From contig JALJEE010001297.1 in the NCBI GenBank assembly GCA_023231475.1, forward strand, positions 1 through 42,909: a stretch of DNA of 42,909 nt, written 5' to 3'. The notes beneath the pieces were generated by a model that saw only the letters and a program-made list of their open reading frames with translations, was not told where the DNA came from and made no database searches. Source of the DNA: Seison nebaliae (taxonomy: Eukaryota; Rotifera; Pararotatoria; Seisonacea; Seisonidae). The position numbers were made by a program, and so were the translations under genes. This document shows positions 1,376 through 41,012 of the stretch, in pieces; within the stretch, counting starts at the first letter, position 1; the number at the start of each line of letters is the position of its first letter.

Positions 1376-3106
1376 ATGAAATTTTGGATACTTCTCTTCT
1401 GCTATGCGTTTCCCATCCTCTACACTTCATTGGAAGGAGCGGATACTTGTGCCAGTTTAGTTAGTACAACGAACAATTTAGGTAAGAAGATCTTGCAATA
1501 TAAATGTAATGCAAATGACGGCAATCCGATTGATGTGACGAAGCTCTTCATATCCAGAGGTGATCTATTCACTGAAATTGACATGCAACCAAATAATTAC
1601 AAAGAAGTACCTCCAATTTTCCATCATTATCACAATGTTGAAACGGTGAAATTGGGAAATAATCAATTGACGACGATTAATGAAGAGTTTTCCGATTTAA
1701 ACAAATTGAAAGTTTTATTATTGAACAATAACGAAATTGAGGAGATGAAAGAGAATTCTTTTGCCAATGCTAAATCGATTGAAGTACTCGATTTATCTCA
1801 TAACAAATTAACTAATATTTCATGGAAGATATTGGATAGTTTGAATAATTTGAAGATTTTGAAATTGAATTCTAACAAACTAAAACGGATTAGTCTTTTA
1901 TCAATCGCTCATATCTCAAATAAATTGACTATATTGGAATTAGAAGATAATGAAATAATTGAAATTAATTCTCAGACGACTGATGAGAAGATAAACAATA
2001 TCATATCTCCTGCTCTCTCCATTCGATTGTGGAAGCAGAATAGTTTCATTAAAATTTCAAGTGAATTATTCTCCATCTTAACCATCCACCATCAGAATCG
2101 TTTGATTGATGTTCTTAAACTCATTTCTAATGATTCGATTGAACATCAAAAATTCATTTGTCATAACAATATTTTGGTGTATGTGAAAGATGTTCAATTA
2201 GATAATCTACTCGATGGTCAATGTTCGAATAATGATGGCAATTTTTTCCGATTTCTTAATTGTCGCAATGATAAGATTTGTCAAGATCCATTTCTAAATA
2301 ATATGAATAATCAGAATCCATTACCTGAACCAGAAGAATTGGTGGATGATGAAAAAGAAGAGGAGGCAAATGGGAAAATGAACAAAAATGCTCCCTATGC
2401 TGCCACTCTTCTATTGATTCCTCTTGTCATTCTAATTGTTCTGTTGAGTCAAAGGAAATGTCGAGAAAAGTTCTTCATGCAAACCGGTTTCCATCCGTTT
2501 GATAATGATCCCGAATATTTCGATATGAAACAATTAGACGCAATCATCTTCCACACAAAAGATGGCTCACAATTCGTGGATGAGAAGTTAAGTGGGGAAT
2601 TGCAGGATTATAACACAATCACCAAAATGATCGTTTCATCAAATACTTTCTCTCAATATGATGCGAACGAGTTGAGTCGAGCTAAACGTGTCATCATTTG
2701 TCTGACGATTGAATTTGTTACATTAGCCTGGGCAGATACGGATCTCCAACAAGCAATTAAAGAATTATTGAAAACGAAACAAACGAAAATAATCGTCATT
2801 CATGTGCACAAGATCAATCAACGTGAAGTTTCTTTAAATTTAAATTAACATTTCTCATTTTATTTCTTTTTCAAGTTAAAAGATCAATTCAATTTAACAT
2901 GTTGCACATCTCAACGATATGATATGAAAGGATATGGAAATAATTTACGTCAAAAATTATTTTATGCTATGCCACAAAAGAAACCGATAAATCCTACTAA
3001 TCAATCCAGTAACGGAATTCCACGATCAATTCAACGGAGAATGCACATTCCCTCATATTCGAGGAAGTTGCCCAAAATGGAAAAGAAGGACGACTTTCTA
3101 ACATAA
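1376..3106 (+). CDS. Toll-like receptor with short LRR ectodomain and divergent TIR domain
   Basis: Exons are 1376-2827 and 2876-3106, joined in phase 0 across a 48-nt intron (donor GTTTCT, acceptor CAAG), giving 560 aa. The ATG at 1376 is chosen because the in-frame codon at 1349 is TTG and because the protein then starts with a hydrophobic signal peptide (about residues 1-22). About five leucine-rich repeats follow (residues 85-200, LxxLxLxxNxL pattern). Next come a cysteine-bearing flank (about 260-305), an acidic juxtamembrane stretch, a transmembrane helix (about 341-358) and a cytoplasmic TIR-type domain (about 386-520). Box 1 is degraded (LDAIIFH) and the RDxxPG box 2 is not present, but the RVIICLT and KIIVIHV strands and the closing LRQKLFYAMP motif are clear. 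Joining the exons restores that TIR C-terminus, which supports the intron. TIR domains of this family pass immune or developmental signals through MyD88-type adaptors; whether this one can is doubtful. Confidence 0.85.
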
Positions 3107-4370
3107 TCTATAAATCTTATTCGATAATGAAGAAAAATGAAGAGATGGACATAAAGATTCAGTTTTGTTCATATATCCATTAAAGAAATCGATCGATTTC
3201 ATTCGTTTCCGATAAATTAATGAATCGATTCCAACACATTTCTCATTTCCACATTTCGCCACAAGACAATTCTTTCTCGTGTCATATATTACAGTGCCAA
3301 TTGGATTGTTCGTCTTGTCCATCCATATCGGTCGACGTCTCATTGACATTATCTTTAATTTCTTTCCATTCAACATCGTTCTCAATGGTTTCTTCATACC
3401 ATTAATCGTTTCGTGATATAATATAAGTGAAATTTTTTTTTTAAAAAAAATTAAATTTTCCCAAAAAACAAAAGGAATTATTTCATCCCAATGAATTCAT
3501 TTTGTGGAAGAGAATTCTAACGATTTCTGAAAGTGCTCGATATTGACGAAGTATCAATTCCGCATCCTGGTGCCAATCTATATCGAAATCAGAAGATGTT
3601 AATCTTCTGGCTGTGAAGAATGTCTCATGAATGAATTATTTTGAACGGGAAAAAAAAACCGATTGGAAAATTTTCATCGATTTGTTTTCTTCGATTTCTT
3701 TCAATGAAATCTCCTTCGATGATTTCTTCTGTTAATTCTTTTAGAAGTTTTATAATCTGCATATGAAAAATTGGAGAAATAGGAATGAGAATAATTGAGA
3801 AACTAATTGACTACTTAAATCGGATAATTCCTCCAATAATTCCATCGTCATCATTCTGGTTCTCTCATTTATTTCATAGATTTGTTGATCGATGATATCT
3901 CCAGTATCAAATTGATTTTGATCAATTCTCATTAAACTGACACCAGTTATTTGATCATTAGTTAAAATAGTGAATGGTATTGGAGATGCACCTCTCCATC
4001 GTGGCAATAGAGATGGATGAATATTTATAATTCCACTAAACAATTCCAAATGAATAGTAAAAAGGAAAAGAAACTTTGGAAGGAATTGACGAATAATCTG
4101 TTCACTAATCAAACGACCATAACTTGCCACAACACCAAATTGTCGACCAATCGACCAAATGAAATGGGGACAAGATGTATGAACATTAGTTGGAATATAA
4201 TCTATTTGTTTCGCAAATAATTGAATTGGATTGAACGATTTACTTTTTCCAATCGTCACAATATCAAGTTGATGAAAGAATTTGGAAGAGTTGTTCGCTT
4301 CTAAAATATTTTGAAGAATCTTTACGGAAAAGATATCAGAGCCGAAATAAGTTAAACGATTCAACTTCAT
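3098..4370 (-). CDS. MTFMT: Mitochondrial methionyl-tRNA formyltransferase
   Basis: Formylates initiator Met-tRNA for mitochondrial translation. Five exons on the minus strand: 4370-4075, 4035-3804, 3756-3660, 3610-3522 and 3391-3098. They total 1008 nt (335 aa) and every junction keeps the frame. The introns are 39, 47, 49 and 130 nt; the 39-nt one has no stop and is a multiple of three, so it looks coding if left unspliced. The N-terminal formyltransferase fold starts LTYFGSDIFS, followed by VVASYGRLI. The catalytic block NIHPSLLPRWRG (Asn103, His105) and FDTGD (Asp142) are intact. The C-terminal tRNA-binding domain has the expected ARRLTSSDFDIDW, YRAL and DFFNGYM segments. The length is slightly below that of vertebrate homologues. 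The ATG at 4370 opens directly on the fold, so a targeting peptide is not obvious; a missed 5' exon is possible. Its stop overlaps the receptor's 3' coding end on the other strand. Confidence 0.92.
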
Positions 4371-4754
4371 TCAAAGAGAAAAATTTGAAATACTCTTCAG
4401 CTTAATATGGAAAATGTGAGAAATAGAAGGAATGAAATAAAAGGAAAATTTTAATGTAATATATAAATTCTCATATTTTAAATTTATGGGGAAGAAAATT
4501 TCATCTAAAATTATGAAGCTAAAAATATTATATTTCCAAATGTTTCTCTTAAAAAGAAAAGGATGAACATCGTTTTCACTCTATCGAGATCACCATCACT
4601 ATACATGAATTATAAAAAAAAAAGAATAATAATTGTTGTTGAGAATGATTTGGTTGGATGAGAAGAAACGTTGAAGATCGTTCGGATTGTGAGAAAATAT
4701 TGTGAATAAAAAGAATTTAAAAAAAATTGGAATATGTTTGTGTGAGAATTTTAA
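4371..4754. other. Intergenic spacer between MTFMT and the CCDC149-like gene
   Basis: About 385 bp of AT-rich DNA with poly-A/T runs. It should contain the 3' untranslated end of the CCDC149-like gene and the promoter of MTFMT, both on the minus strand. No individual site is recognisable. Confidence 0.5.
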
Positions 4755-6664
4755 TTATTTGATGTCACTAAAAATGGATCGACGAGAGCCTTCTCTCAAA
4801 CTGACGACATGTCCTCCCTTTTTTGTATTGGGTTTCGTCGTCCCAGGTAAACGACTCCAGAATGAATCATATTGAGATGGACGTGCAAAAGAGTTTGGTG
4901 AATAGAAATTGACATTTTTCTCCTTATCAAAACGATTGAACATGTTCGTTGTCCAATCGTTCTTTTTAACTGGATGTTTTGTTGGAGAATTGATAGTGAT
5001 GAATTGATGGCAAATGGAAAAAAGATTTTCATCTTTCTCTTCTTCTTCATCTTCATTCTCATCATACATTCCATCTGAATCATTACTATCACTTTCACTC
5101 ATTTGAATGAATTGTTGAGATTTGTCTTCAATCGATTCTATATCATTTATCTTCTCTTCTTCTTTAATTATTTCTTTATTTTCTTTAATTATTTCTTTAT
5201 TCTCTTTAATTATTTCTTCTTCATATTTCGTTGATGGAGTTAATTCTTCAATTTCATCACACTTCTTACGAAGAAGGAACTTCTTTCGAGTTTGTATGGC
5301 AATTGATCGAATTGAAGGATTTCTTTCGGAATTCCTTTTCGTTAAATCGAGATTCATCTCCTCTAATTCAGTAATACGTGCACCGAGCATTCGATTCGAT
5401 CTCTTCATGTGACGGAGTTCGATCGTCTTATCTTGTAACGTCTCCAAAAGCGCTTTGAGGAGTGTCTGCAACGTCTGCATATTCGTTCGCGTCGTCTTGA
5501 ATGTATTGGAGAGATATTCCTGTACTTGTTGTTGATTGATGATCTTCACTTCATCTTCATCTCCCAAACAACCGATATTACCATTGATCTTCTGTTTCAC
5601 TTTCAATTTCTTCAAATTCTTCTTTTGAAGCGATTTCTCATTCTCCAACAGAATTATTCGATTCTTCAAATACAAATTATCTGATTGTAATGATGCCACG
5701 TCGAAATATTCTTTCTTTCCTTCCTCACAACTTCGTTCATTTGTATTATACTCATTATTCTGGAATAATAAATTCATTTGTTCTATACGATTATTCAATT
5801 CCACTTTCTCTTCCTTCAAATCTTTCGTTATACATCTCTCTGATTTCAATTCCACTTGTACATCTCTTAACTGCATATGAAAATTAAAAGATTATTTAGA
5901 AGAAATGATAATCATTTTCGTATGACGTAACTTTTCCTTTTAATTCTTCTAAATCCTTCAAATGTTGTTCATTCCCGTTCGATAATTGTGAAGAGAGACT
6001 CATATTCATCTCGTCGAAACAAACAGAATAAGATGAAGTGAGTTGATTGGGAGTGAATCCTTTCTTCAATTTCATCCTCTTTCTCATTAACTTTCATTAA
6101 ATTTTTAATATTTTCACTCTTCAAACAAATGGAGAACTTTAAGATCATCATATGCATCGAATACTTTCTCTCTCAAATCGTCCCTTTCGTATTGAACAAA
6201 ATTAAGATGTTCTTTCGATCTCACTAATAATTTGATTAGATTCTTCAATTACCAATTATCAATTGAGAAAGTTGAATTTGATGAATTGATTGAAAATAAA
6301 ACCTCTTTATCCATATGTCGATAATAGTTACATTCTGCTTTGCACTTCTCATCAATCATCTCATTGGGAACCATTTCTTCCAAATCATCTCCAACATTTC
6401 TCTATTGAATGAAGATTTCAAATGAAAATCAAGAACAATCACTCCAACATTACAAGTGGAAATACTTTTCAATTTTTCATTCTCCTCTAAAACTTCACTC
6501 AACTTCTCTACCAATGTCTCGAATCCATGCTCCTTCTCAATAATTCGTGATTGTAACTCTTTTATTTGTTGAATCTCACAACGCTTCTCATCCTTTGAAA
6601 AATAAATAAAAAAAATTCAAATTTTTTCTATATCAAATCCATTTAAATTAACTTTCAATGTCAT
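4755..6664 (-). CDS. CCDC149: CCDC149-like coiled-coil protein
   Basis: Six minus-strand exons: 6664-6653, 6592-6449, 6401-6303, 6242-6138, 6090-5932 and 5870-4755. They total 1635 nt (544 aa) and all five introns (60, 47, 60, 47 and 61 nt) are in phase 0. The protein is almost entirely predicted coiled coil up to about residue 320. Similarity to the CCDC149 family rests on the ERDDLREK segment, VASLQSDNLYLKNRI, QQQVQEYLS and especially the ALLETLQDK...RSNRMLGARITELE block. The C-terminus is charged and low-complexity, with a triple EIIKENK-type repeat and an acidic run (DENEDEEEE). The molecular function of the family is not established; a structural or scaffolding role is only inferred. The 12-nt first coding exon (Met-Thr-Leu-Lys) is the weakest part of the model, and further 5' exons cannot be excluded. 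Confidence 0.78.
5152..5217 (-). repeat. In-frame tandem repeat inside the CCDC149-like gene
   Basis: Three near-identical 21-nt units encode EIIKENK, EIIKENK and EIIKEEE (minus strand). The near-identity at DNA level points to recent slippage or unit duplication, so copy number may vary between individuals. Confidence 0.85.
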
Positions 6665-7293
6665 TGTTCGATTTCTCTCTACATGTCATCGGAAAAATTT
6701 AATCTGTTTATTATTTCCATTTTTCCCAATTCTCCTGCGAACGAGATATGTTTTTTTACACATAAATCCTTAAACTTCTTCTCTCTATCAATATATGATG
6801 GAAGGAAGAATGGAAATAAAAAGAAAAAATGAATAATAAGATATTTAAAGATTGTAGCTTCTCATCAATATTACAATAACAAATTATTTTACGTAATCTC
6901 TCAAATTATTGGGAAAAAATTGTTTTTTAAATGTGATAAGAATTGTCGTTATAATTTACATCAAATTTATCATTTATTAATTACACACAAATCATTAAAC
7001 TCATTATTTTTAATCTCATCACATTATTTTTATAAATTTTCTTTATTTAATTCTTACAATTAATTCTTACAATTAATTCTTACAATTCTTAGTTTTTTTT
7101 TCTTCTTTCCATATCATACACGAAGAAAGAAAGATTCATACGAATGACTTAACTTCTGCATAGCAGTTTATCTAGATTTTGATTTTGGAAAGTTTCGGTC
7201 TTTTACACTTACATAATATTCGATTCGAGTCGAATGTGTTTCTGTATTTTTGTCTTTAAGAAGATGAAAGTAAAAAAAAGGAATATAATAAAA
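6665..7293. other. Intergenic spacer between the CCDC149-like gene and mS25
   Basis: About 630 bp with no supportable gene. It is rich in poly-A/T and holds a 13-nt tandem repeat (TTAATTCTTACAA type) near 7051-7090. It should include the mS25 3' end and the CCDC149-like promoter (minus strand). Confidence 0.5.
7049..7091. repeat. 13-nt tandem repeat, about three copies
   Basis: Successive units of TTAATTCTTACAA, the last partial. Two degenerate copies of the same unit occur at about 8140-8165, on the other side of mS25. Confidence 0.85.
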
Positions 7294-7887
7294 TTATTTT
7301 GATTTTTCCCAATACTCTTTCATCGCTTCTTTATCTGACTTCTTTTCTCTGATTTCTTCCAATGCATCTTTCTCATAATATGAATATTTGCCACGTAGGA
7401 ATTCAGGTAACAATTTCTCTGATGGACACGATACTTGCCCATAAATCTCACAAATACAATGACGTTGATAATCCACTCCGAAATTCGCGTCATTCACTTG
7501 TTGCTCCATATTACGTTGTTGTTGTTCTTGTTCGATTTGAGATTGAGATTTACAAAAGATCTTCTTGATCCAATCATGAATATCTTGTCGATTACGCTGA
7601 AAACAATCGATATGATGTTTTTTCGTATTATTCATTTGGTCGAGTGTGTAGATGGTGAGAAAGGATGTCGGAGTCACATCCTCCAATGTGATACAATGAA
7701 CATCAGGATTCTTGTATTGTAGTTGAGGTAGATGCCAAAAGATGAATCTTCTCAATCCTTCTCCTTCCTCCAACTTCGACGAATAATTCATTGAGATAAT
7801 TCTAATGTTATCTCTCAAATATAATTGTCCATTCTGTAAATATTTGATGGTGCGCCTAACAGGCGCTGCACCTTTCATAAAAGGCAT
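7294..7887 (-). CDS. MRPS25: Mitochondrial small-subunit ribosomal protein mS25
   Basis: Single uninterrupted exon, 197 aa, slightly longer than vertebrate mS25. The start MPFMKGAAPVRRTIKYL is the family's characteristic N-terminus. The LRRFIFWHLPQLQYKNP segment matches the thioredoxin-like fold shared with mL43-type mitoribosomal proteins. In vertebrate mitoribosomes mS25 supplies three cysteines to a 2Fe-2S cluster shared with bS16m. Here Cys144, Cys146 and Cys154 keep the same C-x-C-x7-C spacing, so cluster binding is probably retained. A glutamine-rich insertion (about residues 114-130) and a lysine-rich tail account for the extra length. No targeting peptide is visible, as is usual for this protein. 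The gene diverges from the downstream desaturase; the two share an upstream region of about 860 bp. Confidence 0.93.
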   Translation of the reverse strand: MPFMKGAAPVRRTIKYLQNGQLYLRDNIRIISMNYSSKLEEGEGLRRFIFWHLPQLQYKNPDVHCITLEDVTPTSFLTIYTLDQMNNTKKHHIDCFQRNRQDIHDWIKKIFCKSQSQIEQEQQQRNMEQQVNDANFGVDYQRHCICEIYGQVSCPSEKLLPEFLRGKYSYYEKDALEEIREKKSDKEAMKEYWEKSK

Positions 7888-8752
7888 TATGGAAAAAGAA
7901 GAAAATAATTTTTTTTGAATTTTATCAAAAACTCATCAAAGACTAGAAATTTAAGAGAATTTGAAATTCAAAAGTTTTTATTCTAATTAGAATATTTTGG
8001 GATTGATGAGAAAAATATTTGGAAGTAGATAGAAAAGAACATAAAAGAAGAACTCGATTATATTTACGATAATGATAAATGGATATTAATCTTTTTTATA
8101 AATTTCATTTTAATTAATTGTTTAATAAATTTTTTCCATAATTCTTACAATAATTCTTACATTATTTCAAATAAATAGAACAATCAGGATTAATTTCCAT
8201 TAAATATTTCCTAATCATTATTGATGTTTTTATTGGATTTTTCCGTTCTTATAAATTATCTATGGATTCGTCGTTTTATGAATGAAAATAATTTTTAGTT
8301 TTGGATCGGATTTTCATTTGTTCATAATTGAAATCGATAGGATTGAATTGAAGCTCAAATTATCAATAGGAAAAAAGGAGAAACATGAAGCCAAGTTTTT
8401 GAATGAACCAGTTGAATATTATAATATAATTATCTCTTAATGGTCGAGATAATTACTAGGATGATGCGACACTCTAAAGTGAAAGCAGAAGTTGATTATA
8501 TGAAAAAGTTTAAATTACCTCAAGATCGTTTCTTTTCGAATAACATTGCGAAATGAGTGTTTCTAATTGAATATGAATGAATCTCTTTAAACAAGATATT
8601 TATATTTATATATATATATATATATATATATTAAACGTTCTGTTATTAGATACTCTACAATTTTCTGTTTTTTCTATTCACTTTGATACAATTCATTCTC
8701 TTCCTTCCAAACAATAATAGTTTCCTTTTACAATTCTCATTTTTTGACAGAA
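7888..8752. other. Divergent upstream region of mS25 and the desaturase
   Basis: About 860 bp with no coding signal. It contains degenerate copies of the TTAATTCTTACAA unit (about 8140-8165) and a TA run (8598-8631). Promoters for both genes must lie here, but no TATA or initiator site can be called confidently in such AT-rich DNA. Confidence 0.5.
8598..8631. repeat. (TA)n microsatellite
   Basis: Near-perfect alternating TA run upstream of the desaturase start codon. Confidence 0.9.
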
Positions 8753-10452
8753 ATGGGTAAAGGTGGACGAGCCGTACAGGAACACCCAACAGATTTTCTA
8801 GAGAATATAACAAACGAACAGACCTTCGGTTCGGCTTTTCCTCCATCCATCTTTATTCCATCTCTTTCATTTCTCTTTAAGATAGCGAGAGTAAACGATT
8901 ATTTACTTGGGAACAATTGAACTATCATACACGTACACAACCGAATGAATATTGGATTGTTGTGAATGGACATGTGTTGGATGTCACCAATTTCTTACGA
9001 CGTCATCCTGGAGGTACGCGATTATTGAAACATTATAATGGTCAGAATGCAACGGAAGCTTTTCTCGCTTTCCACAAACACATGGAAAAGACTGAAAGTA
9101 TGTTTAAGAAATATTGTATTGGTCGATTGGACGAACAACAGGAATGGTCATTGGTCAATCGATTGAGTGATGGCGATTTGGATGTATCGAAAGAAGAGAA
9201 AGTATTAGCGAACGATTTTGAAAAAGATAAACAACTTCGAAATGATTTCGAACAAGTCCGTCAATTGGCTGTAGAGAAAGTTTTTTTTTTTTTCTCTCAA
9301 AATTTTCTTTCAAAATTTCTTCTCTTTCTAAAGAATCTTTTCGAGCCGAGCAAACTCTTCTTTTTTAGTCATTTTGCACATATCGTCCTTATTGAATTGA
9401 TCGGATTTATGATTGCGTACAATTTTGGAATTAACTCTTGGATTCCATATTTCGCTTCAATTCTCTGTTATCTAGTAGCGGAATCACAAGCTGGTTGGTT
9501 ACAACATGATTTCGGTCATTCTTCAGTATTCCCCAAAACTTGGATGGACAAACGATTTCATCAAGTCTTTATGGGTTATTTTAAGGTTAGTTAATTATTA
9601 TTATATTTAAAATGAATTATTTATATTTTGGAATATTTCGAATATTTAGGGTGCTTCTTCTGGATGGTGGAATCATTTACATTTCCAACATCATGCCAAG
9701 CCGAATTGCATTGGAAAAGATCCGGATGTACGTGTTGATCCCGTTTTCATTATTGGGAAGCATATGGTTGAGAAGTATGCGAAACGATGTAGTAAAGTCA
9801 AATATTTCCTGCCCTACAATTGGCAACATGTTTATTTCGTAATTGCTGGTCCACTTCTCTTTCCCTTATTCATGGGTATTATGACAATCAGACATGCATT
9901 CGTTCGACGCGATTATAAGGAACTCTTTTACATTTCTTTATTTTACTTCAAATTCACATACTTGATACCGGCTCATGGAATTTTGATGATGATGAGATAT
10001 GTCTTCTTCTTGAGAATGATGGAGAGTACGTGGTTCACTTTAGTCACTCAGAGTAATCATGTTGTCATGGAGATCGATGAAGATAAACGTGATGCTTGGC
10101 TACCAGCTCAAGTTTAATTCTCATCCTCTCTTCCACTAATTAATAATTTCCATTTTAGCTTCGTGCCACATGTAACATTGAACAGAGTTTCTTCAACGAC
10201 TGGTTCACTGGACATCTTAATTTCCAAATAGAACATCATCTATTCCCGAGAATGCCTCGACATAATTTACATAAGATTGCTCCGAAGATTAAGGAGTTGT
10301 GTCGAAAACATTCGGTACGATATGAAGTGAAACCGTTGTTGGGAGCATTCTATGATATTGTATGCACTCTGGAGAAGTTCGGACAATTGTGGTTCGAAGC
10401 ATACAATGAATTTATAGATATGCAGAACAATGTGAAAGCTAAAGAAGAATAA
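8753..10452 (+). CDS. Cytochrome-b5-fused front-end fatty acid desaturase (delta-5/6 type)
   Basis: Introduces a double bond between an existing one and the carboxyl end of a fatty acyl chain, in the endoplasmic reticulum, for polyunsaturated fatty acid synthesis. Exons are 8753-8756, 8882-9279, 9334-9585, 9650-10111 and 10159-10452; they total 1410 nt, 469 aa, all in frame. The N-terminal cytochrome b5 domain carries the heme motif HPGG (from residue 43). The desaturase histidine boxes are complete: HDFGH (192-196), HFQHH (229-233) and QIEHH (395-399). The glutamine in the third box is the signature of front-end desaturases. Several hydrophobic segments lie between the boxes. The first coding exon holds only ATG plus one base; an alternative splice using a donor at 8774 would give a slightly different N-terminus. 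Substrate and regioselectivity (delta-5, 6 or 8) cannot be read from sequence. Confidence 0.93.
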
Positions 10453-10918
10453 TTAATTTATAGTCAACTAATTATTATGAAAATACTTCTGCTCGTTCCG
10501 TCACTTAAAATGATTTTTCTATATTTTCCAATTGTTATTAATATTTTAATCGAATTACAGGGGAGAAAGCAAATTTATCAGTTTATTTCTCATCAAATGA
10601 ACGAATTTCCTTTAAAACAAATTTAATTCAAACAATCGTTTTCTATTCTACTCAATTTTCCATCTCATCCTTAATTATCTTTCTTCTTTTTTTTTGATTC
10701 GTTGAATTCAACGCAGTAATTTTAATTTAACTGTTTTTATTATCATCGATCATTTCTTCTAAATCATCATAGTGGTTCTAATCTACAATTTCACGATTCT
10801 CCAACTTGAATCTTTTCATCATCTCATTTCTAATCAACGAGTGAGTCAACAAATTTCGCTGAAATAGCAAGACAAGAACAGGATTATTTTCTTTCTTTCT
10901 TTCTATTATTCATCGTAT

Positions 10919-10949
<31 letters not shown>

Positions 10950-13900: not shown

Positions 13901-14103
13901 AACAATTTCAGGATTTTTAGAATATTATTCAGTTTTATTCTACTTTTTTTTTGTTTCTTCATTAAATGATAAGATATGTTTCCCCAGATAATTACGAAGT
14001 CGAAATCGGTTAGAGAAGAATTAGATAAAATTTGGATGAAAATTGATAGTTCCAATTTGCATCCAATTTTGAATATTTTCAATAATTGTTTGAAAACTTC
14101 AGA
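10453..14103. other. Gene-poor stretch downstream of the desaturase
   Basis: Apart from the desaturase 3' end, no gene is supportable. It contains TTTC and GTT microsatellites near 10,897-10,950 and many short open frames of the size expected by chance in AT-rich DNA. One minus-strand frame (13182-12958) has a hydrophobic start and ends at a potential AG/GTAGTA donor, but it has no recognisable domain. Confidence 0.5.
10919..10950. repeat. (GTT)n microsatellite
   Basis: About ten GTT units, preceded by a short TTTC run at about 10,891-10,907. Confidence 0.92.
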
Positions 14104-14276
14104 ATCTAGGACAAAACGGCACCCGTTTATACATACTTCTTGAGTCTGTTCTCTTGACCGAAAGAGAAAGAAGTAGATAAGGAATTTCCTTTTCTCATAT
14201 AAAGAAAGGTACGGATAGAGAACAATCAAGTCAGTTTTCACAATACGAACTCAAAAATTAGAAATAAAAATGTAAG
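14104..14276 (+). repeat. Left terminal inverted repeat of the MULE
   Basis: Its reverse complement matches 16,164-16,334 with only about five mismatches over the inner 130 nt. The outer end reads GGACAAAACGGCACC. Confidence 0.88.
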
Positions 14277-14436
14277 TTTGTTTGTTCGAGTAAAATAATT
14301 TATATTTTTAATGAAATATTATAAGAAATAAAAAAGTTAATTGGGAATTATATTTATTTTCTATACAAAAATATGAGAGTAATTAACATATGAAACAAAA
14401 CAAGCAAAACAAAAAGTCAAAATATACAAATTAGCT

Positions 14437-15757
14437 TTAATGAAATTTATTAAGATATGAGACGATTTCTTCATCTTTCTTCACTTGTTTCTTCGGCAGT
14501 CTTCTCAATTTTCCTTTCATTGTTTGATTGAATTTGGTAATTTCTAAATTGAATTTTGTTTCAATTAATAATTCCGTCTTTTGTACACCCATGTGACTTC
14601 TGGGGATAATAAATTTCAAACCATTATTTCCTTTATATCGTTATTGGTTCTAGGTAGATTAGAAACTACGGGTGTAATTTGACCAGAGTTCAGGAGGAAA
14701 TAATGGTGTGGTAAAGCCAGAGAAAGGAGGATAGCCCACATAATTTTTTACGAAATAGGAGAAAGTATCTTTCGCGAGGTCCGAAACTGATTCACCTATC
14801 TTCCTAAAAGTTAATGGAATGTCCTCGGGTGGTACAAATGAAAGAGCCTTAAGTAATTGAATATCTTTCTTAAAACTCTTATTCGATTGATATTTTATTT
14901 TTTTCCCTAAACTTTGTACTTGTCTCATAATTGATTGTTCTAAATGGAAATAGCAACCGTAGATTGTTGCACTGGGGAAGATTAACCTAAACGCGTTAAT
15001 TGTTGCTACCTCGAAATCTACTGTTATCGAACAAACTATCGTGTTTCCTAAAAATTTCCTAATTTCCGAAAAAACCTCGGCATAATGTTCCTGCTTTTTA
15101 TTTTTTCATAAAACGTAACCTAAGTTTATAAATTGATTCTTTAACAAAAACGAAATGACGTAAAGCTAGTAATATCCTAAAGGGGCCCTATCAAAGGTGT
15201 CGTCCGCAAATAAATGGAGGTTTGTTTGTATTCTATCCCTAATTCTAATATTGAAATAAACCATGAGATCTTCCTTTGAAATTTTTCCTCCCTCTTGAAA
15301 AACTACTTCCTCCTTCTCTTGCTTTCTTCCAACGTTTCTTGTAACAGATGAAATTCTTCCAAAAACGCTTTGTACATCCACTGGCACTTTTGAAAGTGTT
15401 CTAACCACTATTGAGGATGGTGCTTCACCTGTGCATTTGCTTGCTTCATCTATCGTCTTCTTCAACTCCAATTTCTCGATTTTCAGTTTCTCTATATCAT
15501 GCGAATGGTTGTGTCATGGGTTTGATTTTCAGATTCTTATCGACGCATATCATTGACTTGCAGCTTTGGGATGTTTTATGTTGTTTACAGTACGACGCGG
15601 AACTTCCAGAACTGACATAATCTTTTTTTTGTAGTATATAAATTCTTCGTCGACGATGGCAATTTGGGTTCCTTTGGAACTCGGAATAAACCTTATATTG
15701 TTCATGATAAGTATAAAGGTAAAATGGATGTTTTAAGCTTATCATTTTCCAGAACAC
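14437..15757 (-). pseudogene. MULE transposase, broken by stops and a frameshift
   Basis: The frame runs from 15757 down to about 14437. The first part (15757-15497) has residues reminiscent of a FLYWCH-type zinc finger. A frameshift near 15,490 follows, then the transposase core. FADDTFDRAPLGYY is the first catalytic-Asp block; VDFEVATINAF followed by GCYFHLEQSIMRQVQ is the second Asp with the conserved C/H motif; and LALSFVPPED-like and ELWSNYTR segments close the domain. In-frame stops occur after GYY (TAG where the family has Gln) and about 20 codons later (TGA). A C-terminal EIVSYLNKF-type tail lies in 14619-14437. The gene cannot make an intact transposase. Confidence 0.82.
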
Positions 15758-21267: not shown

Positions 21268-21302
21268 ATGTGTGTGTGTGTGTGTGTGTGTGTTTGTGTG
21301 TG
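21268..21302. repeat. (GT)n microsatellite
   Basis: About 17 GT units with one TTTG interruption. Confidence 0.93.
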
Positions 21303-24157: not shown

Positions 24158-26521
24158 ATGAAACGAAAGAAGAGTGTTCGATCGATCGACGACACAATTA
24201 CGATTAATGATCAGAAGTTTTTTGTAAACTGTAAAGGCTATTTGAAGAATAATGCTTATTATCATGGATTCCAATGTCCGAAGATTGGAAAGAATCCTCA
24301 ATTTTGTTGTCGAACAATTACATTGAGTTCGAAAGAATGTTGCACAAAACACGAATTGGAACAGTTGTTGAATGAAGAATTATTGGTGAATTATCCGGAT
24401 TTGGATGATGAAGCATATATCATTATCGCTGATAAGAAGGATGAATTAAACATTAAAGCCTCGTCTAATATCGAAGAGATTGATGAGATTAGTACGACGA
24501 CCAATTCGTTCATTGATCAGGATACAATGAAACCGTTCCCACCAGAAAATGTGAGATCAAATGATGATAATGGCAATTTTATTTCAAGAAATCAATTCCT
24601 TCTCACATGTTCTGTCTTCGTCTTAATGTTGTTGTTGTTTATTATAATAGTCTTATTAATTTGTCGATATTGTCGACGATGTTGTTGGTATCGTTATATT
24701 CGTGAAATGAAAATGAAGAAATCTTCTCAGAAAGCACATACATGTTCATCTAATTCATCACAATCATCGTCAACCACAACTGGTATTTTATCAACGGCCA
24801 ATAGTAAATCAAAATATTTCCAATATGACAACGAAAATAATAAAGAACAATTGAATATTTTAATGAATAATTGTGCAGCTACTAATTCCACTTTCAATCA
24901 ACCACTTTATCAATTGACGACGAATGATATCGATCAACAGCAAAAGCAGAAATTACTCGACAGTTCTTCATTGTCACCACCACATACAGGCAACGCCTCA
25001 CAACTCCAATCGAATGACGATCAATTTACCACAATTAATCGAAAATTTTCCTCCATTCTTCCAACAGCGAATTGTGGAAATAACTCATTATGTCATCGTC
25101 CATCATTTCACAATAACAATAAGAATAATAACTTAGGGAATGTGTTGGGAAGGAATTCCGTTTCAACATTCAATTCCATTCAACAACCAAATCAAATGGA
25201 AAATTATTCGTTTGATAATATTGTATCGAATCCTAGTATTATCGTATCAACGATGAATAACGGTAATCAATTAATTTATCATACAACGATGAACACACAA
25301 GCGAGAACGTCAAATAATAATTTGCATCGATATCCCTCAAAGAATTTGGGGAAGTTAAAGAATAATACATCTAATGTAGTGTCACCATCATATCGTATTT
25401 CTACCATGACTAAACGACAATATCAAGATAATCCTAATGAATCACATTATGGGAATTATGTCAATACGAAAGATCACAATTATACTATCAACAAATTATC
25501 GCAAATAAAGAAATCGTTAGCAGATTTTATTTTCTAATTTTCATTATTTTTTTCCTTCTCTCAAAAAGAAATGACAATTCGAATAGTTTTCTAGAAAATA
25601 CTTATCAAGAGTTTAAGTTCCCCAACGATTCAGCAATGTTTGCTTCTGCATACTTCGCCCAAATGCAACGGGAGGACGAAGAGAATAAATTGATGTTTGA
25701 TCAACAGAATAAGAAGGACAATGAGAATAATTCAAGCTTATCGAAACATTTAGAGGATTTACGAAAACAATTAAATGACAATCCGAATGATAAAGGAAAA
25801 AGTTGAAAAGAAACTTTAATTTCTCATTTTCCACTTTTCTTTTCAACAGATCAATTCAATTCAGGAAATCAATTATCGTCTCTTCTCAATACGAGATTGT
25901 TATCGAAACGTTCTTATGGTTTCCAAAAACCGAATTCTTTAAGGAAGTTCTTATTTAGAATTATTTATCTTATTTTATTTAATTTTCATTAGTGATTCAA
26001 CTAACAGTTCTACTAGTGGATATCATCATTATGCACGAACAACCGAATCTGAAAATACATCATCGACGATGGAGACGGCAGCATATAATATGATAATCAA
26101 TTTATCGAATAGCAGTGATGATCGTTCCGATATACGACAACAAGACTATTTGGATAATACGCAGAATGGCGTCCTCCAAATTATCCCATTTCCCGCTACT
26201 CATTGTCCTCTCGATAATATTGATTCACAAACGTTAAAAAATGATACTGATTCTGGTGTACATAGCAGTTCGATAGCGAACGACCGAATTAGTCGCAACG
26301 GTCGAAATATGTCAACGGAATTTACAAATAAAATGTCTATGTCTCCCAAACTTCCCATGCGAAATCGATCACCATTTGATGATGAGGATGGAGTAGAATT
26401 GCATGACATCGAAGAACAGAATGACGATGATGATGGGGAAATTGCTCACCTCAAAGAATTGATGACAACCACCACGGCAACAATCAAAACTATCAAAGAA
26501 GAAACGTTTACATATGGATGA
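24158..26521 (+). CDS. Shisa-like single-pass membrane protein (5' end uncertain)
   Basis: Exons are 24158-25515, 25587-25801, 25850-25946 and 25993-26521, joined in frame across introns of 71, 48 and 46 nt; 2199 nt, 732 aa. Near the N-terminus is a Shisa-type cysteine module: CKGYL (Cys25), HGFQC (Cys40), FCC (50-51) and ECC (61-62). A transmembrane helix (about 147-169) follows, then a Cys/Arg-rich membrane-proximal stretch. The cytoplasmic tail is very long, disordered and rich in Asn, Ser and Gln. Shisa proteins trap Wnt/FGF receptors or modulate glutamate receptors; which role applies is unknown. The first ATG gives no signal peptide before the cysteine module, which the family requires. 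A separate upstream exon probably supplies it; an acceptor could lie at TTTTAGTGAG just before the ATG. Family assignment rests on cysteine spacing and topology only. Confidence 0.62.
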
Positions 26522-32500: not shown

Positions 32501-35500
32501 GTGTGCATTGACTCTGCACAAAATGTGCACGACTCATTTCTCAGTAGATATATAATGAATCTGGTAATCATTAGACATACAGTCCAAGAGGCGTATGGCT
32601 CGGATGGACATTTGAAGACGAAATGAGATTGGCTTCTCCACATCTCTCTAATTTAACATCGTATTGATCGTTTCAATAACTGTTATTCTCTAATTAAATT
32701 ATTCGATTGACTCTTAGGTCGAAAACGACGACGACAAAGTGGACTAGGAGCATTGTACTGGTCCTGTCAGATGCACATTTGGAGCAAGGAAGTTTGATTG
32801 AAGAAAGTCATTTATTTTCGTTCGATCGTAAGAAGAGAAGAAAAATGGTAAATATAGAACAATTCCATTATTTATGGTAAATAAAGATTTCAATTGTATT
32901 ATGAATCGTCGTCGCCAACCTCGTCCCAAAATATATACATTCCCCACAGAATTCACTAAAAATTTCCTACAATTAGCATTGTTCAATCTCGTCAAGAGGA
33001 AGAAAGAATTGACCAAATAAAAACCAAAAGATTTGAAAAAATTTCTTTTTTTTTTTCATAACCAAATGTATTTCGACCAACAAGAATAAGAAGCAAAATG
33101 AGAATATCATGATAATCGACACCACTAACATCGTCATCTATCAACGAATAATAATAATTATTATTATTATTATCGACATCTTCATCATCATTGTAATTGT
33201 TGCCGTGCATATATCCGACGTACGACTATCGTTCCATTACGACTTTAGGTTAAAAACGGTAAGTATAATGAAAAGAAGTAAATTCTATTGTCTACTCACT
33301 TCATTCAGAATCGGCATCCATTTAATGCTATTTTATATGTGAGAGAATAATGAAGAAGATTGAAATGAAATAAATGACGATTCGTCATTTTTTTTGATGG
33401 ATAGATTTTGAGGGATCCGAATGGAAAAATTGTTATTTCTATTGTTCAACGGAAAAGTCTACTGCGTCGCGCATATGTATGATGGGGCGTACGATGTTGG
33501 ATGAGAAAGATGAATTGATAAATGGAATATTGGGAAAGTAAATTTTCCCATTATCGCTTTCCATCCATGTTTACTTACTAATGCAGTGAAGATGTTGACG
33601 AAATGTGCTAAAGGTAGCCGGTGGGCAGCAACTCGTTATAAAAATGTTATCCATCAATTCGTTTACTCGACATGGGGAGAAGGACCGATGAAAAGAATGA
33701 AAACATTAGTCAATTTCATTAGGCGGTTCCAATTCGAAGTGTACTCTCGTCCTAAAACTATACCACTTTCATAACCATCATCATATTGACATCATCTTCA
33801 ACCATGTCCAATATGTCCGTGCACAATTTTGTTCATCTCTAAGTCTTTTTAGGAAAATATTCTCCTGGCAACTTTTTCTGATAATTCATTTTCTTTTACC
33901 AATTTTTTTCTTTAGTCAAAAATATATGGTTGATTTCTCTATGTAATATAATATAATATGGAAGATAAAATCATCACCATCTCAATCTGCCAATGACAAA
34001 TGATGAAGGATGATAGCAGAAAGGACTGAGTGAGAAAAAGAAGTTATCATAAAAAAATGAAATTCAATATTTCACTGATAATCATTATATGGAATGGCAT
34101 TTGGAGGAATGATTTAATTAAATAAATATGAAATACAGTTATCAATTTAATGAAACTTCTTATCGTTCATCTCATTCCTTTATTGTTGATTGCGATGACG
34201 GAATAATATTCGACGTTATCGATTCATGCATCTGGTGGTGAATTTCAATTTCAACACGAAATTTCCTCAACTCAATTCAGTTAATAGGGGAGATGGGAGA
34301 TAGAATTAATTTTTGTCTAATTCATCTGAAATTATCTCTCAATATATATATATATGTATATTTGTGTAAGGGAAGGATTGATGATTGAATGTCGATTGTC
34401 AACATTCATTTCTATTCTACTCTCAATCTAGTTTCAATAGAATACGAAGTATTGTTGAAATTGTTGAACTGGACGAAGTGCATGGGATGAATTTGTTTTG
34501 AAGATAATTTTGAGATGAAATTCAGGAAATCTTAGAGATATGAACGACGATTGTTACGTAATTGAAGTCAATGGACAATTTGATGGAATGATTGAAAATG
34601 TCTCAAAACGATTCTTTACTTAACCCGAATTTTTACATTTAATAATTTTCTTCTTAAACATAGGAGGATTGAAGGGAACATTTCTAATTTTTATGATAAG
34701 ATAATCCACATATTTCAACCGGTTCATCTTTGCTACTGTGTTGTTGTGGGAATAATTATCAGGAATTTGTAGTTTTTCAATCCTTTCCTTTCTTCTCTAA
34801 CAATTCTGATAACAGATGGAAATAAGGTTTCTTTCATTTCATTCGTATACAAATATTTTAATGATACCGACAAAGTCAACGGAGAAGAACCGAAAGTGAC
34901 ATGAAAATGCGGCACATTTCAAATCGATTTGATTACATCATCATTGGGAAGAGTGGAGTAAATGCATTAGCAAATGCTTTACATGTTCACTGATTGTCAA
35001 TTGACTGTCAACAAATCAACTTTTTCATTCACCGCTATTGTTTCTCCCTCCTACCAACATTATTCTTCTTCGATTAGTGATCTCATTCTCCAATTGCATT
35101 TAACAAGCAAACGAAGAATGAATACCTAACGCTATATATCTAACTATCCAATTTCTATTTCTTCTTTCCAAATCACGAAATCTTCAATTGAAATTGGAGG
35201 GGAGATGGACAACTTTCTATTCTCCTATTTCCGGTAAATAAGTGAAGAGTCGATCTAAATTATATCGTATTTGGATTAATTCTTCTCATTTAATATATAT
35301 ATTTCTCTCAAATCGTTTAGTAATGTTATTGAGGAATCCTTTCCATTATTAGTTTGACTTGTAAAACGAAGGAATGATGAAGGAATGATACGAAAAATAA
35401 CAATCCTTCCCGTTATATATACGTACATGTATCGTTTGTTTTAATTGTCGGTCTGACGGAAGTGATACTCCATTATTGCATCATAATTCTTCTTCATTCT

Positions 35501-35868
35501 TTTTTCTTCCCGTCATCAAAATGTTTATGATTCTTACCATTACTATCATCGTCAGGAATAATGATATCAGCGACAGTAGTAGCATCATCATCTTGTGATT
35601 CTCTTCATTGTGATACTCTTCCTTTTCTTCTTTCGTACTCATCATTAATTTCAGCTGTTGTTTAGTTATTTAATTAATAGATATTAATTATTCTTCTCCA
35701 ATTTCTCCGTTTCTTTTACAGAGATGAAATTAATTTATTGCTAATAAATTTCATTGTACCGATATCATTAATAAGTTCGCCAATTAACTGGCTAAACGAA
35801 ATTTCTTTCGCAGTTCTTTATTGTTAGAGTGAATACGAAATCATTCGTCATTATTCAATCAACATAAT
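26522..35868. other. Gene-poor stretch upstream of the protocadherin
   Basis: About 9.3 kb. I find no multi-exon gene. It has an AGAAGA run (27,011-27,030), a G run (28,169-28,177), CAT/ATC runs near 30,610, an AAT/ATT palindrome (33,147-33,174) and one exon-like segment at 28,219-28,289. It probably holds regulatory DNA, and possibly untranslated 5' exons, for the protocadherin. Confidence 0.5.
33147..33174. repeat. AAT/ATT palindromic microsatellite
   Basis: Four AAT units run into ATT units, making a perfect self-complementary stretch of more than 20 nt. Confidence 0.85.
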
Positions 35869-38800
35869 ATGATGGTTTGGACGAGAAGTGGAAGATTGGA
35901 TTATACATTCATCATATTCATGTCATTCTTATCATTTGCACATTGTTTGAAAGAAGAACGCATTACTATTCAATTGAATGAAACGGCACCTATTGGTAAA
36001 ATAATTTGGTGGTACAACAATTCGAGGAATTTGGAAGGAATAGTAAAGAGTATTCGACGTGAAACATTTATGTCGAATCGTATTGATCGCATTCAACAAC
36101 TCAGTCAATTAATGTATTTCGACTCAACAACTCTGAGATTAAGAGGAAACATTTCTTTGATAAGTATTTGTAATGAGAAGAATCCGAGTCAATCGTTATG
36201 TTCGAACCAGTGCCATTCATCTTGTAACATCGAATTCAGTGTAAATCTGATTGAACGACATAGGAAATCGTTGAATAATAATAAATTGAAAATCGTCAAA
36301 TCATTATTGTTCTCTATATTTATTCAAGATGTGAATAATCATGCAGCTTTCTTCCATACCGATTTCAAGGAGATTTCCATTAATGAAAATGTACCTCTTG
36401 GTATTCGATTACCATTGGAAGGGGCAACTGATTATGATTTCGATTCAGATAAACGAATTTTAGAATATCGATTGATGTATTATAAATCGCCAAATGAGAA
36501 AGTGAAAGAATTGGAGTTATTGCATTTGGAGAAATATGATATTCATATTGATCATCTCAATTTAGTTCTCGTCTCCAAATTAGATCGAGAAAAACAATCA
36601 GAATTACAACTCATTCTATTAGCACGATATCAACGACCATTCTCGCATTTGATCGATGAAACTCGTATGAGAATTTGTATTCGAATTATTGACGTGAATG
36701 ATGCTGCTCCCCAATTCGACCAGAACGTTTTTCATATAAGTCTCTCCGAATTTACACAGGTAGGACAAATCATTAAGAATTTTACGGCTACCGACGCAGA
36801 TAGTGGAATGAATGGAAAAGTAGAATATGCGCTACGAATGTCATCTTCCAAATTGTCATCATCATCATCATTATCATCATCATCATTGTCGTCATTGTCG
36901 TCGAGAATGTCATCACAATCTTTCCCACAAGACCTATTCCCATTTTCAATTAACCGTCATAACGGAAGTTTAATGATAACTAAACCGTTAGATTTCGAAC
37001 ATAAAGATTCTTATCAATTTCTGGTTGAGGCACATGATTCGGTTGGAAAGGTGCCAACTGAACGAAGAAATACAGGCCATGCACGAGTAATGATACAAGT
37101 CATTGACGAGAATGACAATCAACCACAAATGCAGTTGATTCAATTGAAATTTCCAATTTTTAATGATGATACTTTCAAGAAATATTTGCCCACACTCAAA
37201 TTGAAGAGAATGGATGTGAGAGAATCGGAGAATATGGAAAATGAATTTATTCTTTTTATTAAAGGAATCGATGCTGATTATTCAGATTCATTAAATTGTC
37301 ATTTGAATGAATGGTCATTTCGGGATAGGAATGAATTGAAACGACATTTAAATAAATTAGTTAATTCATTAAAATTCAATCAAAATCTTTTATCAACATC
37401 ATCATCCTCCTCATCATCATCATTATCAATTCAGTCATCATCTCAAAATAAATTCTATAAATCGATGTCACCGTATATACGAGAAATGTTCTCCACTCCT
37501 CAATTATTCGAAATGGAAGAGATTCATACAAGTGATGCCGACAAGTTACATATGTCTCCATCATCTTCTGGATTTAATAATGAATATCGTCCCAGACAAT
37601 CCACAATAATGTGCCGGATAAAAGTTCTCTCTCAACTCAATCGAGAAAAATCGGAATATCATTTATTAAAAATAAAGATAATGGATCGAGAACATCATTC
37701 GGAACAATTATTATTATTACACGTTTTAGATGTGAATGACAATTCTCCAATTTTCATCAACGCCACATATAATTCACCATCGGACAGTTCCTTAATGAAT
37801 TTCCGAAGAGCGAGTGATTGTTTAATAAAGAAAAGTATTTCTGAAAATTTAAAGAAAGGTGAAGTTGTTACAACAATTCAAGCGACTGATATGGATCAAG
37901 GATTAAATGGAAAAATTTATTATTCAATCACCAAACAAAAAGATGAAATGTTTTGGGTGGACAAATTTTCGGGTAACGTCTATTTGACGAATGGTCGATT
38001 TGATCGTGAGAAGGTCAATGAACATTCAATATTAATAGAAGCGACTGATAATGGCAAGAATGTGAAGAAGAGAAGAACATCCCAATGTATTCTCCAAATC
38101 AATGTGTTGGATGATAATGATAATTCACCGAAATTTGAATTTCCTTCGTATCATTTTTATCTGGCTGAGAATATGACAATCGGTTCGATCATTGGCTATG
38201 TGAAAGCGACGGATAAAGACGAAGGTCTAAATTCGAGAATTAATCTCAAATTACAACCGATCGAACAAAATGGTAATATTAATTTGATGGAGAATAAGAA
38301 TGATTTATATGCCACCAACAATTTACAATTACCATTCGCTATCGATGGGAATGGTCGAGGAAAAGTCACCGGCATCTTAAAATTAGTTCAACAATTAGAT
38401 CGAGAATTGAAGAAAGAATATAAATTTAAAATTATTGCAACAGATTTCGGACGTGACATCCATCGAGAAACTGCCGTATTGGCCACAATTACTGTGACGG
38501 ATATCAATGACAATGCACCACATTTTATTTGGCCACCAGAAATTTTGGAGAAATCGAATATGGAGTATTTATCATTCCAGTCGCTTACTAATACGTTATA
38601 TGTGAATAAGAATTATTTTATTGAACGATCTAAATTGGAAAGTTCGATGAAGAAGAAAGATGATGTTCATTTAATAAAATTAGTACGATTTCGAGCATCT
38701 GATCGTGATAATGAAGGTGCAAATAGTCAAATCATTTTCACATTAAACACTTTCCAAATGGTGGATAAGAGAATTTTCCATATTTTTCATATGGAACACA

Positions 38801-41012
38801 ATGGATGTCTTTTCATGAATATTTCGAAAACGAAAATTGGTCGATATGAAATTCAAGCGAGAGCGTCAGATAATGCAAGAAATTCCTTATTCTCTTTAAG
38901 TCGCTACTTGTCCATTGTTGTTTATGACGATGTGGTGAGTGAGAATGAAGCGATGAATATAATTCATTTACCCAAACAATCATTCCACAATAGCATCCAT
39001 CGTCAACAACTTTATCATGATAATAAGAAACAGTTCTTATTTCAAAACTTCTCTGCTGATTCGAAAAATTTCCGTCAATTTAAACATTTCTCTTCGAATG
39101 GAAATCGAATGAAAAATCGAAGAAATGGGAAAGATTCGACGTTTGTTATGATTTTAGCTTTCTCTATCACATTTGCAATTGCCACCGTCGTTTTTATTTG
39201 TATTCTGACATTTCAATATCAAATAAAAAAAGTACGTCATCAAAATCGTCGGAAGAGAGTGTCATCTTTTCGTCAGTTCAATAATTCTGTAAAGAAATCG
39301 TTGAAGGAAACTGGAGTTCATCAAGATTCTAAATGTCAAGTAGAAAAGAATTGTGTAACATCGTCAAATGAGAAGAATACGTCGTTCGATAAAAATACGA
39401 CGTCAACTGTTGCAACGACGACATATATGGATTGTTCATCAGCATCCAACGATTATATTCCATCACAAACATTTACTTTAAGTAACTGCTCCACATCGGA
39501 AACACCATCTCCATCACAGAAAGTTGGAGAGAATAATGATTTTCATGAACATAATACAGATTTAATGATTCAATTGAATCAAATGAATCCATCGAATGAC
39601 ATGTTATTCATCGAATCTCAACAACAACAAGAGCAACAAAAACATTTACAATTACATGATCAGAAACAACAACAATATTTTTCGAAACAATTCTCTCCGG
39701 AGACTTCATATTTCGATCATCGACAATTAACTTTACAACGTCATTCAAATCGACAACCATCACATGAGCAACAACAACAGTTTATTTTTGATGGACAACA
39801 TAATAATGAGCTACAACAAAAACATTATCATCAACAACAACCACAACAACAAGAACAATATATTACACAGACATTGAAAAGTGCACGTTCGTTGGGACAG
39901 AATAAAGGATCGATACGTTTCTCTCATTTAGGTGAGGCTTTAGTTGACAAGAATTTTGGACCTGATAATTCCGAAATATTCGTAAATAATTTCTCTCAAA
40001 GAGATCCATCCATACCCAATCAACCAAAATCTTCACTTAATCTTTTAACTCATCATTCGATCGATGGAGAGAATATGGGACAGAATAGTATTCAATATTT
40101 GGATTCGATAAGAAAACAATGTTCTAACAATAATCGAGTAGATTATGGAAATGGTCATGATTGGAAATCAACTGTCATCAATCGACTGGTCATACATGAA
40201 AATGGCCATTCTTCCAACCAACCGACGACATGTCGAACGGATAAAGTTGGAATTTGCATGTGTAAATTATAAGAATTTATTATTAATTCTAATTCTCTTA
40301 ATAGGAGAATTATTTGATGCACTCGAATGACATCTCATCAAATAATCATCAGTCTCTTTCAGATTATCGTCCAATTAATGATAAACAACAAAAACAACCG
40401 ATATCATATAATAATGATGCGTTTAATGATAATACTTCGATAATCGATGTTTATTATCAAAAATCGAATTCAGAAGATAACAAATTAGAAGTTTTTTTCG
40501 TTTATATATATATCTTCTTTAATTTCTATATATTTCTATATCAGCTTCCTATGAATCCAACATCATTCGATTCTCAACAAACAATCAACAATCAATTCAA
40601 TTCTTCTCATCTTCTTTACGATAATGTCATCATATCGAATGATGGTTCGTCCATAATAAATGACAACAATCCGTTGACAACTTTTCCATCTTCTACCTTA
40701 CCATCAGGATCATCAGTTAATGTCCTTCAAGAACATCTTCCATTGGTCCAAACATTGACACGTACATTAACCGACTATGAATATAATTATGGTCGGACCG
40801 ATCTCATACCGATTGTTCCAGTGTCATCTATCGAATATATATCTGATGGAAACGAATCAATAACCACAACAATCGCTTTGGCAACAACAACAACTAGTTC
40901 GAGTTTGACGACAAGTTCCATGGTTTCAACCATCGAAATAAAGCAGCCGCTCTTACAAGAAAGTGAAACATTTTCCAGTTCACTCAACATTCATCAAATC
41001 CAAAGAGATTAG
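35869..41012 (+). CDS. Protocadherin-like adhesion receptor, seven cadherin repeats
   Basis: Exons are 35869-40245, 40305-40490 and 40545-41012, phase 0 at both junctions (introns 59 and 54 nt); 5031 nt, 1676 aa. A signal peptide (about residues 8-27) is followed by about seven extracellular cadherin repeats. Their calcium-binding linkers are visible: DVNNH (154), DVNDA (275), DENDN (413), DVNDN (622), DDNDN (748) and DINDN (878). There are also DxD and LDRE motifs inside the repeats. The linker at 154 is weak. Repeats three and four carry serine-rich insertions. A transmembrane helix (about 1091-1113) leads to a 560-residue cytoplasmic tail with long Gln/His-rich runs and no catenin-binding domain that I recognise. 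Seven repeats, one giant exon for the ectodomain and no laminin-G or EGF domains fit protocadherins better than classical cadherins. It should mediate calcium-dependent cell adhesion. Confidence 0.9.

Follow-up and report, generated by a model that had tools for sequence, protein, structure and literature searches.

Spliceosomal introns usually begin with GTA or GTG, that is, with a purine at donor position +3, and the 5′ end of U1 small nuclear RNA (snRNA), where a (pseudo)uridine is usual at position 6, ranks with the best-conserved RNA segments of eukaryotes. We analyzed intron donors and U1 genes in Seison nebaliae (Rotifera; Pararotatoria; Seisonacea), an animal hosted by marine crustaceans (PMC8351084), beginning with a stretch of 42,909 nucleotides (nt), contig JALJEE010001297.1 of assembly GCA_023231475.1, which is hereafter called the window and in which nearly all introns start with GTT. 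The 5′ splice site is chosen mainly via base pairing with U1, in which donor position +3 pairs with pseudouridine (Ψ) 6, and a U at +3 gives a U-U mismatch there (Kondo 2015, PMC4383343). Studies of aberrant donors have sought compensating U1 changes and found none (PMC10581693, PMC13326754). In Seison, both sides of this nearly universal U1-donor recognition appear, as read from sequence, to have changed together: most donors carry T at +3, and among the four U1 genes found, three have an A as their sixth base.

We know of no genome-wide change of donor consensus associated with the variant U1 snRNAs of human. Like those of Seison, these are changed paralogues beside canonical U1; the human set is raised in stem cells and takes part in pre-mRNA processing (PMC5159530). 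The nearest precedents are the C8U U1 of the copepod Eurytemora affinis (PMC7072748) and the poly-C U1 of the diplonemid S. specki (PMC12621601). In Eurytemora, which has GA/GG donors, one of five potential U1 copies carries C8U and is proposed to pair with GA donors (PMC7072748, PMC5714493); the case concerns about 12% of introns and one U1 copy, the same variant being annotated as a pseudogene in human (PMC7072748), whereas in Seison it concerns about 88% of introns and, among the four copies found, three. S. specki resembles Seison in that its genome holds U1 genes with a canonical as well as an altered 5′ end, but its two U1s pair about equally with the canonical 5′ splice site of that species, and in the parts examined no shift of the major donor consensus is tied to the poly-C U1 (PMC12621601). 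The larvacean Fritillaria borealis is, like Seison, an animal with a genome-wide donor change and a U2-type spliceosome. There, U1 was a likely substrate for change and yet not the route taken: both U1 versions share an identical, strictly conserved 5′ end, and the authors attribute the change to a duplicated U2AF and to N6-methyladenosine (m6A) (Soo 2026, PMC13326754). Seison differs in that GT..AG is kept, +3 is changed and the matching base is found in U1 itself. Yeast lineages have repeatedly switched between A and U at +4, which again affects a single base of the intronic donor; a Ψ-to-A substitution in U1 was considered as compensation, but no U1 or U6 change was seen, ACUUACC being invariant wherever U1 was found, and METTL16 and SNRNP27K were linked to the switches (Parker 2023, PMC10581693). 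The Seison genome paper does not discuss donor bases in the parts examined (PMC8351084), and searches of open-licence PubMed Central papers yielded no earlier report of Seison donors or of a +3 U/U1 A6 pair.

The assembly comprises 36.03 Mb in 846 contigs. We combined the window (contig C593) with 20 stretches of 10 kb, giving 242,909 bases (about 243 kb from 21 contigs), and used both strands to train a gene-finding hidden Markov model (HMM) on itself. Two stretches, L026 and L029, were picked for their U1 genes and the other 18 by taking roughly every 40th contig number; labels beginning with L denote loci and those beginning with C contigs of this same assembly. The main run imposed GT and AG and left the rest of the donor, including +3, neutral. 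Removal of three duplicates from overlapping chunks reduced 225 introns to 222, and removal of six introns shorter than 30 nt and nine in overlapping opposite-strand models left 207; the 15 distinct introns lost to these filters had 7 GTT, 6 GTG and 2 GTC donors. Four of the six short introns fall in L027, where a Gly-rich coding repeat produces false introns of 24-25 nt. A separate filter on the coding score of the flanks (10-nat cut) left five introns, too few to use, with T at +3 in two and the top two being GTC in the same repeat. Two HMM gene models contain an in-frame stop, and L011 holds a simple repeat in coding frame, a run of the GRTDGRTD type.

The analysis confirmed that the excess of GTT donors is real and general across the 21 sampled contigs. 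GTT begins 189 of the 222 distinct introns, and the filtered set consists of 182 GTT, 11 GTC, 7 GTG, 5 GTA and 2 other donors, so the usual purine at +3 does not hold; the resulting share of 85-88% is a better genome-level estimate than the 18 of 19 seen in the window. With +3 neutral, T stood there in 120 of 166 introns at the first pass and in 194 of 225 at convergence. Started from forced GTA, the model drifted to T in 175 of 213 introns over eight rounds and had not converged. A start without an imposed dinucleotide settled on G|TT, shifted by one base, and its acceptor was likewise out of register; its optimum was slightly worse (log-likelihood 14615 versus 14698), and we use it only in support of the GTT word. 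In a held-out half, read by a model trained on the other half with the donor defined as GT only, 69 of 88 introns had GTT. AG acceptors close 200 of the 207 filtered introns, and the median intron length is 51 nt (n = 222).

Composition offers a simpler account, in which T at +3 reflects AT-rich drift in weak donors that canonical U1 still reads, the U1 copies with A6 being unexpressed paralogues. The window has a GC content of about 31%, and the base after GT is T at 40.0% of sites (A at 22.5%) over all 243 kb and at 52% inside introns (n = 275 GT). Against these backgrounds, 182 GTT donors among 207 have chance probabilities of 2.5e-46 (40%) and 4e-28 (52%), and GTA donors, at 5 of 207 where A would be expected at about 22%, are depleted. 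The weak G at +5 and the existence of a canonical U1 gene fit drift, whereas the exact compensating base in three of the four U1 genes found, with Sm site and U1A loop kept, does not. We regard drift as quite unlikely.

Donor positions were also checked by independent means. Our desaturase model is identical over 493 amino acids (aa) to the public protein SNEBB_008966 and has GTT at 4/4 donors; the HID1 model matches SNEBB_011458 letter for letter, with 8/8; and SNEBB_000647, mapped onto the DNA, gives six GTT, one GTC and one GTA among eight, so that these three genes together have GTT at 18 of 20 donors. For each of the 20 introns, no alternative GT/GC-AG pair within 30 nt yields an identical protein. 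Further, a profile built from 119 homologues, Seison excluded, served to score the stop-free, in-frame combinations of a GT/GC donor and an AG acceptor lying within 45 nt, and the GTT donor ranked first at all 12 introns (desaturase 4/4, HID1 8/8), although HID1 intron 4 offered no other candidate and at desaturase intron 1 it led a GC donor by 1.6 bits. In the tyrosine hydroxylase gene of L029, five catalytic-domain junctions fall where the protein can be aligned gaplessly with solved structures, and all five donors are GTT. That the donors are an artefact of gene modelling, the true ones lying at shifted positions, is thus largely refuted already and exceedingly improbable: 15 of 222 introns had to be filtered out, 7 of 207 acceptors are not AG and 1 of 20 donors differs from the public proteins, but two proteins are reproduced identically, 7 of 8 introns agree with SNEBB_000647, and at the one where HMM and annotation disagree the annotated donor is itself GTT. 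Two further genes were set aside as anchors: for the Na/K-ATPase beta gene the alignment with solved chains is too poor, and in a Rab gene only the GTPase part was anchored, its GTA call lying outside.

The search for U1 genes used the Rfam covariance model RF00003 on 41 of 293 candidates, so copies may be missed; four genes scored 97.4-112.9 bits against a cut-off of 69.5. The canonical 5′ end ACUUACCUG, complementary to GURAG, is present in one of the four and absent from three, which carry ACUAAC; this element is where the change lies, and the remainder of each molecule is U1. These three variants read AUACUAAC followed by (C/U)UGG, with A at position 6 opposite donor +3, and the remaining gene keeps AUACUUAC; in all, three 5′-end forms can be distinguished in Seison, AUACUAACC, AUACUAACU and AUACUUACC. 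Two variants share the 5′ end AUACUAACCUGG (C208:8280-8439 and C647:4426-4585, both minus strand), the third combines A6 with U9 (AUACUAACUUGG; L004, C762:47440-47598, minus strand), and the canonical-end gene begins AUACUUACCUGG (L002, C208:6576-6739, plus strand). A variant and the canonical-end gene are convergent neighbours on C208, and since they adjoin there, both belong to this animal. The four genes keep an AAUUU-type element that we take to be the Sm site, and the three variants have AUUGCAC in what we take to be the U1A loop, where the canonical-end copy has AGAGCAC. Judged by eye, a downstream AATTAAACT-like element is common to the variant U1s, two U2 genes (with one change in one of them) and the U5 gene; it has one mismatch behind the canonical-end U1 and is missing from a divergent third U2. 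A fifth 13-nt match to the U1 end, at C629:103997, has no U1-like continuation and was rejected as chance.

Duplex energies of the U1 ends with 220 GT donors point the same way, 188 pairing better with a variant U1 by more than 0.3 kcal/mol and 11 with the canonical one. With the better variant, donors average -3.76 against -1.72 for 600 random GT sites, a gain of 2.0 kcal/mol; with canonical U1 the values are -1.60 and -1.25, a gain of 0.35 kcal/mol. The base at -1 offers a less circular comparison. A is the commonest base there (51% of 180 GTT donors; 106 of 220 GT donors), and the 106 donors with -1 A average -3.42 with the U9 variant against -1.10 kcal/mol with C9, while the 69 with -1 G average -5.39 with the C9 variants against -2.86 with U9. 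This case is nonetheless weaker than that for +3, A being common in these exons anyway (33% is the exon background assumed in the model).

Several observations weigh against a coupled change of donors and U1. The energy comparison is partly circular, since T at +3 alone favours A6, and every donor test but one imposed or required GT and AG. Pairing outside -1 to +3 is weak, with G at +5 in 27% of 180 GTT donors, and mean Watson-Crick pairing reaches 5.9 of 11 positions over 205 donors. The full-match word MAGGTTAGT is not enriched genome-wide (154 sites against 146-252 expected under Markov models); MAGGTAAGT is likewise not enriched (199 against 144-252), and a reversed-word control differs in dinucleotides and is not comparable. 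Given the weak +5 G and the lack of enrichment of the full word, the intron side has little strength beyond GTT itself, and these short introns may be recognised as units. The GTT share is clearly lower in some stretches than in others (unfiltered, 21/21 in L021 and 10/10 in L029, but 16/23 in L022, 6/10 in L027 and 0/1 in L023), the low value of L027 being due to its repeat. Furthermore, the canonical U1 gene is still there, scores 112.4 bits and is no obvious pseudogene, and some 12% of the donors in the filtered set differ from GTT. The latter form no clean GTRAGT class, which leaves the canonical U1 without a clear clientele.

Another possibility is that a different factor, such as U6, U5, Prp8, U1-C or METTL16/SNRNP27K, changed first and drives U at +3, U1 having followed or being incidental. 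The single U6 gene found keeps the canonical ACAGAGA box, and the U5 loop GCCUUUUAC and the U2 branch-site sequence GUGUAGUA look canonical in the genes found. U1-C (L039, C664:32656-32763), whose first intron starts GTTATA, is highly conserved against what we take to be the human sequence, with changes at residues including 28, 29 and 32. Residues 28 and 29 are close to the RNA backbone, residue 32 is close to the 5′ end of U1 (Kondo 2015, PMC4383343), and the yeast +4 switches, tied to proteins while the U1 ACUUACC stayed invariant, provide a precedent for a change that begins elsewhere (Parker 2023, PMC10581693). On the other side stand the canonical U6, U5 and U2 sequences, a PF05971 (METTL16-type) match in the genome at 44.8 bits and, in U1, the exact compensating base; we consider a prior change in another factor unlikely. 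The preliminary description had suggested that donor recognition changed across the whole lineage by way of U1, U6 or U1-C and had called for a look at compensating changes. That look returned A6 in three of four U1 genes, an unchanged U6 box and the U1-C differences above; the U1 part of the proposal is supported at the level of sequence, and the change is shown for one genome, narrower than the lineage proposed.

Taken together, it is quite probable on sequence grounds that the main class of U2-type introns in Seison exchanged GUR for GUU at their 5′ splice sites and that U1 snRNA coevolved with them. A6 of U1 would form a Watson-Crick pair with U at +3. It would have no wobble partner, unlike U or Ψ, which would accept A and, via wobble, G, and this difference could explain why +3 is more one-sided in Seison than the usual purine. 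The U9 variant would pair with the frequent -1 A, and the C9 variants would suit -1 G. The variant U1s are presumably expressed, assembled into small nuclear ribonucleoproteins (snRNPs) and engaged in selecting GTT donors.

The history of the introns bears on how such a shift could come about. The five tyrosine hydroxylase introns correspond to nucleotides 441, 509, 706, 842 and 969 in human PAH numbering (with an offset of 61 residues), which we take to be exon boundaries of human PAH. As these introns stand at old animal positions, their donors would have changed in place, and we infer that existing introns were converted to GTT. A recent burst of introner elements with GTT ends could also fill a genome with such donors, and the short, fairly uniform introns (median 51 nt) would suit it. 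However, comparison of the 222 introns all against all gave only 11 pairs at E<=1e-3, nine of them 15-21 nt long and the other two (38 and 157 nt) opposite-strand models of one place. Together with the position of the tyrosine hydroxylase introns at junctions equivalent to those of human PAH, this makes an introner burst very improbable.

Under a coupled shift of donors and U1, extrapolation from 222 introns in 243 kb suggests that tens of thousands of donors have changed genome-wide. With donors and most U1 genes found changed at facing positions, Seison would be a natural experiment on the rewriting of a one-to-many RNA code, and the retained canonical U1 suggests a route: U1 was duplicated, a copy mutated, introns drifted and the old pairing was lost. 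More tentatively, and we hold this to be rather unlikely as a whole, Seison may run a multi-U1 system in which the A6/C9 and A6/U9 forms split GUU introns by their -1 base, while the canonical-end U1, which lacks AUUGCAC, would no longer serve bulk splicing and would be retained for a different task, for example 3′-end protection or a small set of introns. Such a system would mean that an animal has fully recoded its U1-5′ splice site helix while the genome still carries the old code. For annotators of seisonid genomes there is also a caution, as genes may end up misplaced when standard donor models are used.

In the window itself, the preliminary description had counted GTT at 18 of 19 introns. 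The self-trained HMM arrives at the same proportion, 18 GTT and one GTC among 19 distinct introns, though the two sets of introns differ. The best-anchored introns are the four of the desaturase gene (plus strand), each called by the HMM and supported by the profile and the public protein: 8829..8881 (donor TCG|GTTCGGCT), 9280..9333 (AAA|GTTTTTTT), 9586..9649 (AAG|GTTAGTTA, matching a variant U1 over AG|GUUAGU) and 10112..10158 (CAA|GTTTAATT). The first of these replaces what had been the only GTA donor, in a 125-nt intron with ATGG|GTAAAG, which proved to be a miscall; the true intron is 53 nt long. The 493-aa GTT version scores 603.3 bits against the profile of 119 homologues and the GTA version 597.8, and in the GTT version the reading frame runs on as MGKGG (MGKGGRAVQ... 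in the public protein), a start shared by 44 of the 119 homologues (MGKG by 78).

The four introns of the MTFMT gene (minus strand) had been thought fixed by homology, which holds for intron 1 only (4036..4074, AAA|GTTTCTTT), the one that adjoins a stretch well aligned to solved bacterial enzymes. Introns 2 (3729..3803, TTA|GTTTCTCA) and 3 (3624..3659, TCG|GTTTTTTT) lie in weakly aligned sequence, and intron 4 (3407..3521, ATC|GTTAGAAT) has a modelled acceptor that is not AG and hence an uncertain 3′ end, so all three are less secure. The corrections to the desaturase and MTFMT genes leave the conclusion on donors unchanged.

The other window introns were called by the HMM. On the plus strand they are one in a leucine-rich repeat (LRR) protein gene (2828..2875, GAA|GTTTCTTT), three in the gene at 24158-26521 (25516..25568, ATC|GTTAGCAG; 25802..25849, AAA|GTTGAAAA; 25947..25992, GAA|GTTCTTAT) and two in a cadherin gene (40246..40304, AAA|GTTGGAAT; 40491..40544, GAA|GTTTTTTT). 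On the minus strand, a coiled-coil gene has three (6593..6652, AAA|GTTAATTT; 6402..6448, AAT|GTTGGAGT; 5871..5931, AAA|GTTACGTC), and a weak gene model has one of low confidence (32956..33062, TTG|GTTATGAA). The sole call other than GTT is the GTC donor CTG|GTCAAATT at 14600..14683 (minus strand), just downstream of, and in the same frame as, a MULE transposase match; it is probably not a real intron. The match itself, a MULE transposase domain at 14659-15105 on the minus strand (1.4e-05), falls just below the Pfam cut-off.

Minor components of the splicing machinery were also recorded. The divergent third U2 gene (L037, C796:78598-78799) scores 78.7 bits against 139.1 and 135.4 for the other two and is perhaps a pseudogene. 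A search for the bdelloid spliced leader, with up to three mismatches allowed, gave no match, and a search for U12 gave none either, its controls also returning nothing. Among the filtered GTA donors, drawn from models with GT donors only, 0 of 5 is the U12-type GTATCC (RTATCC), the nearest being GTATCA. U6atac scores above the Rfam cut-off (L041, C143:9744-9851), which suggests that a minor spliceosome is likely to be present in Seison.

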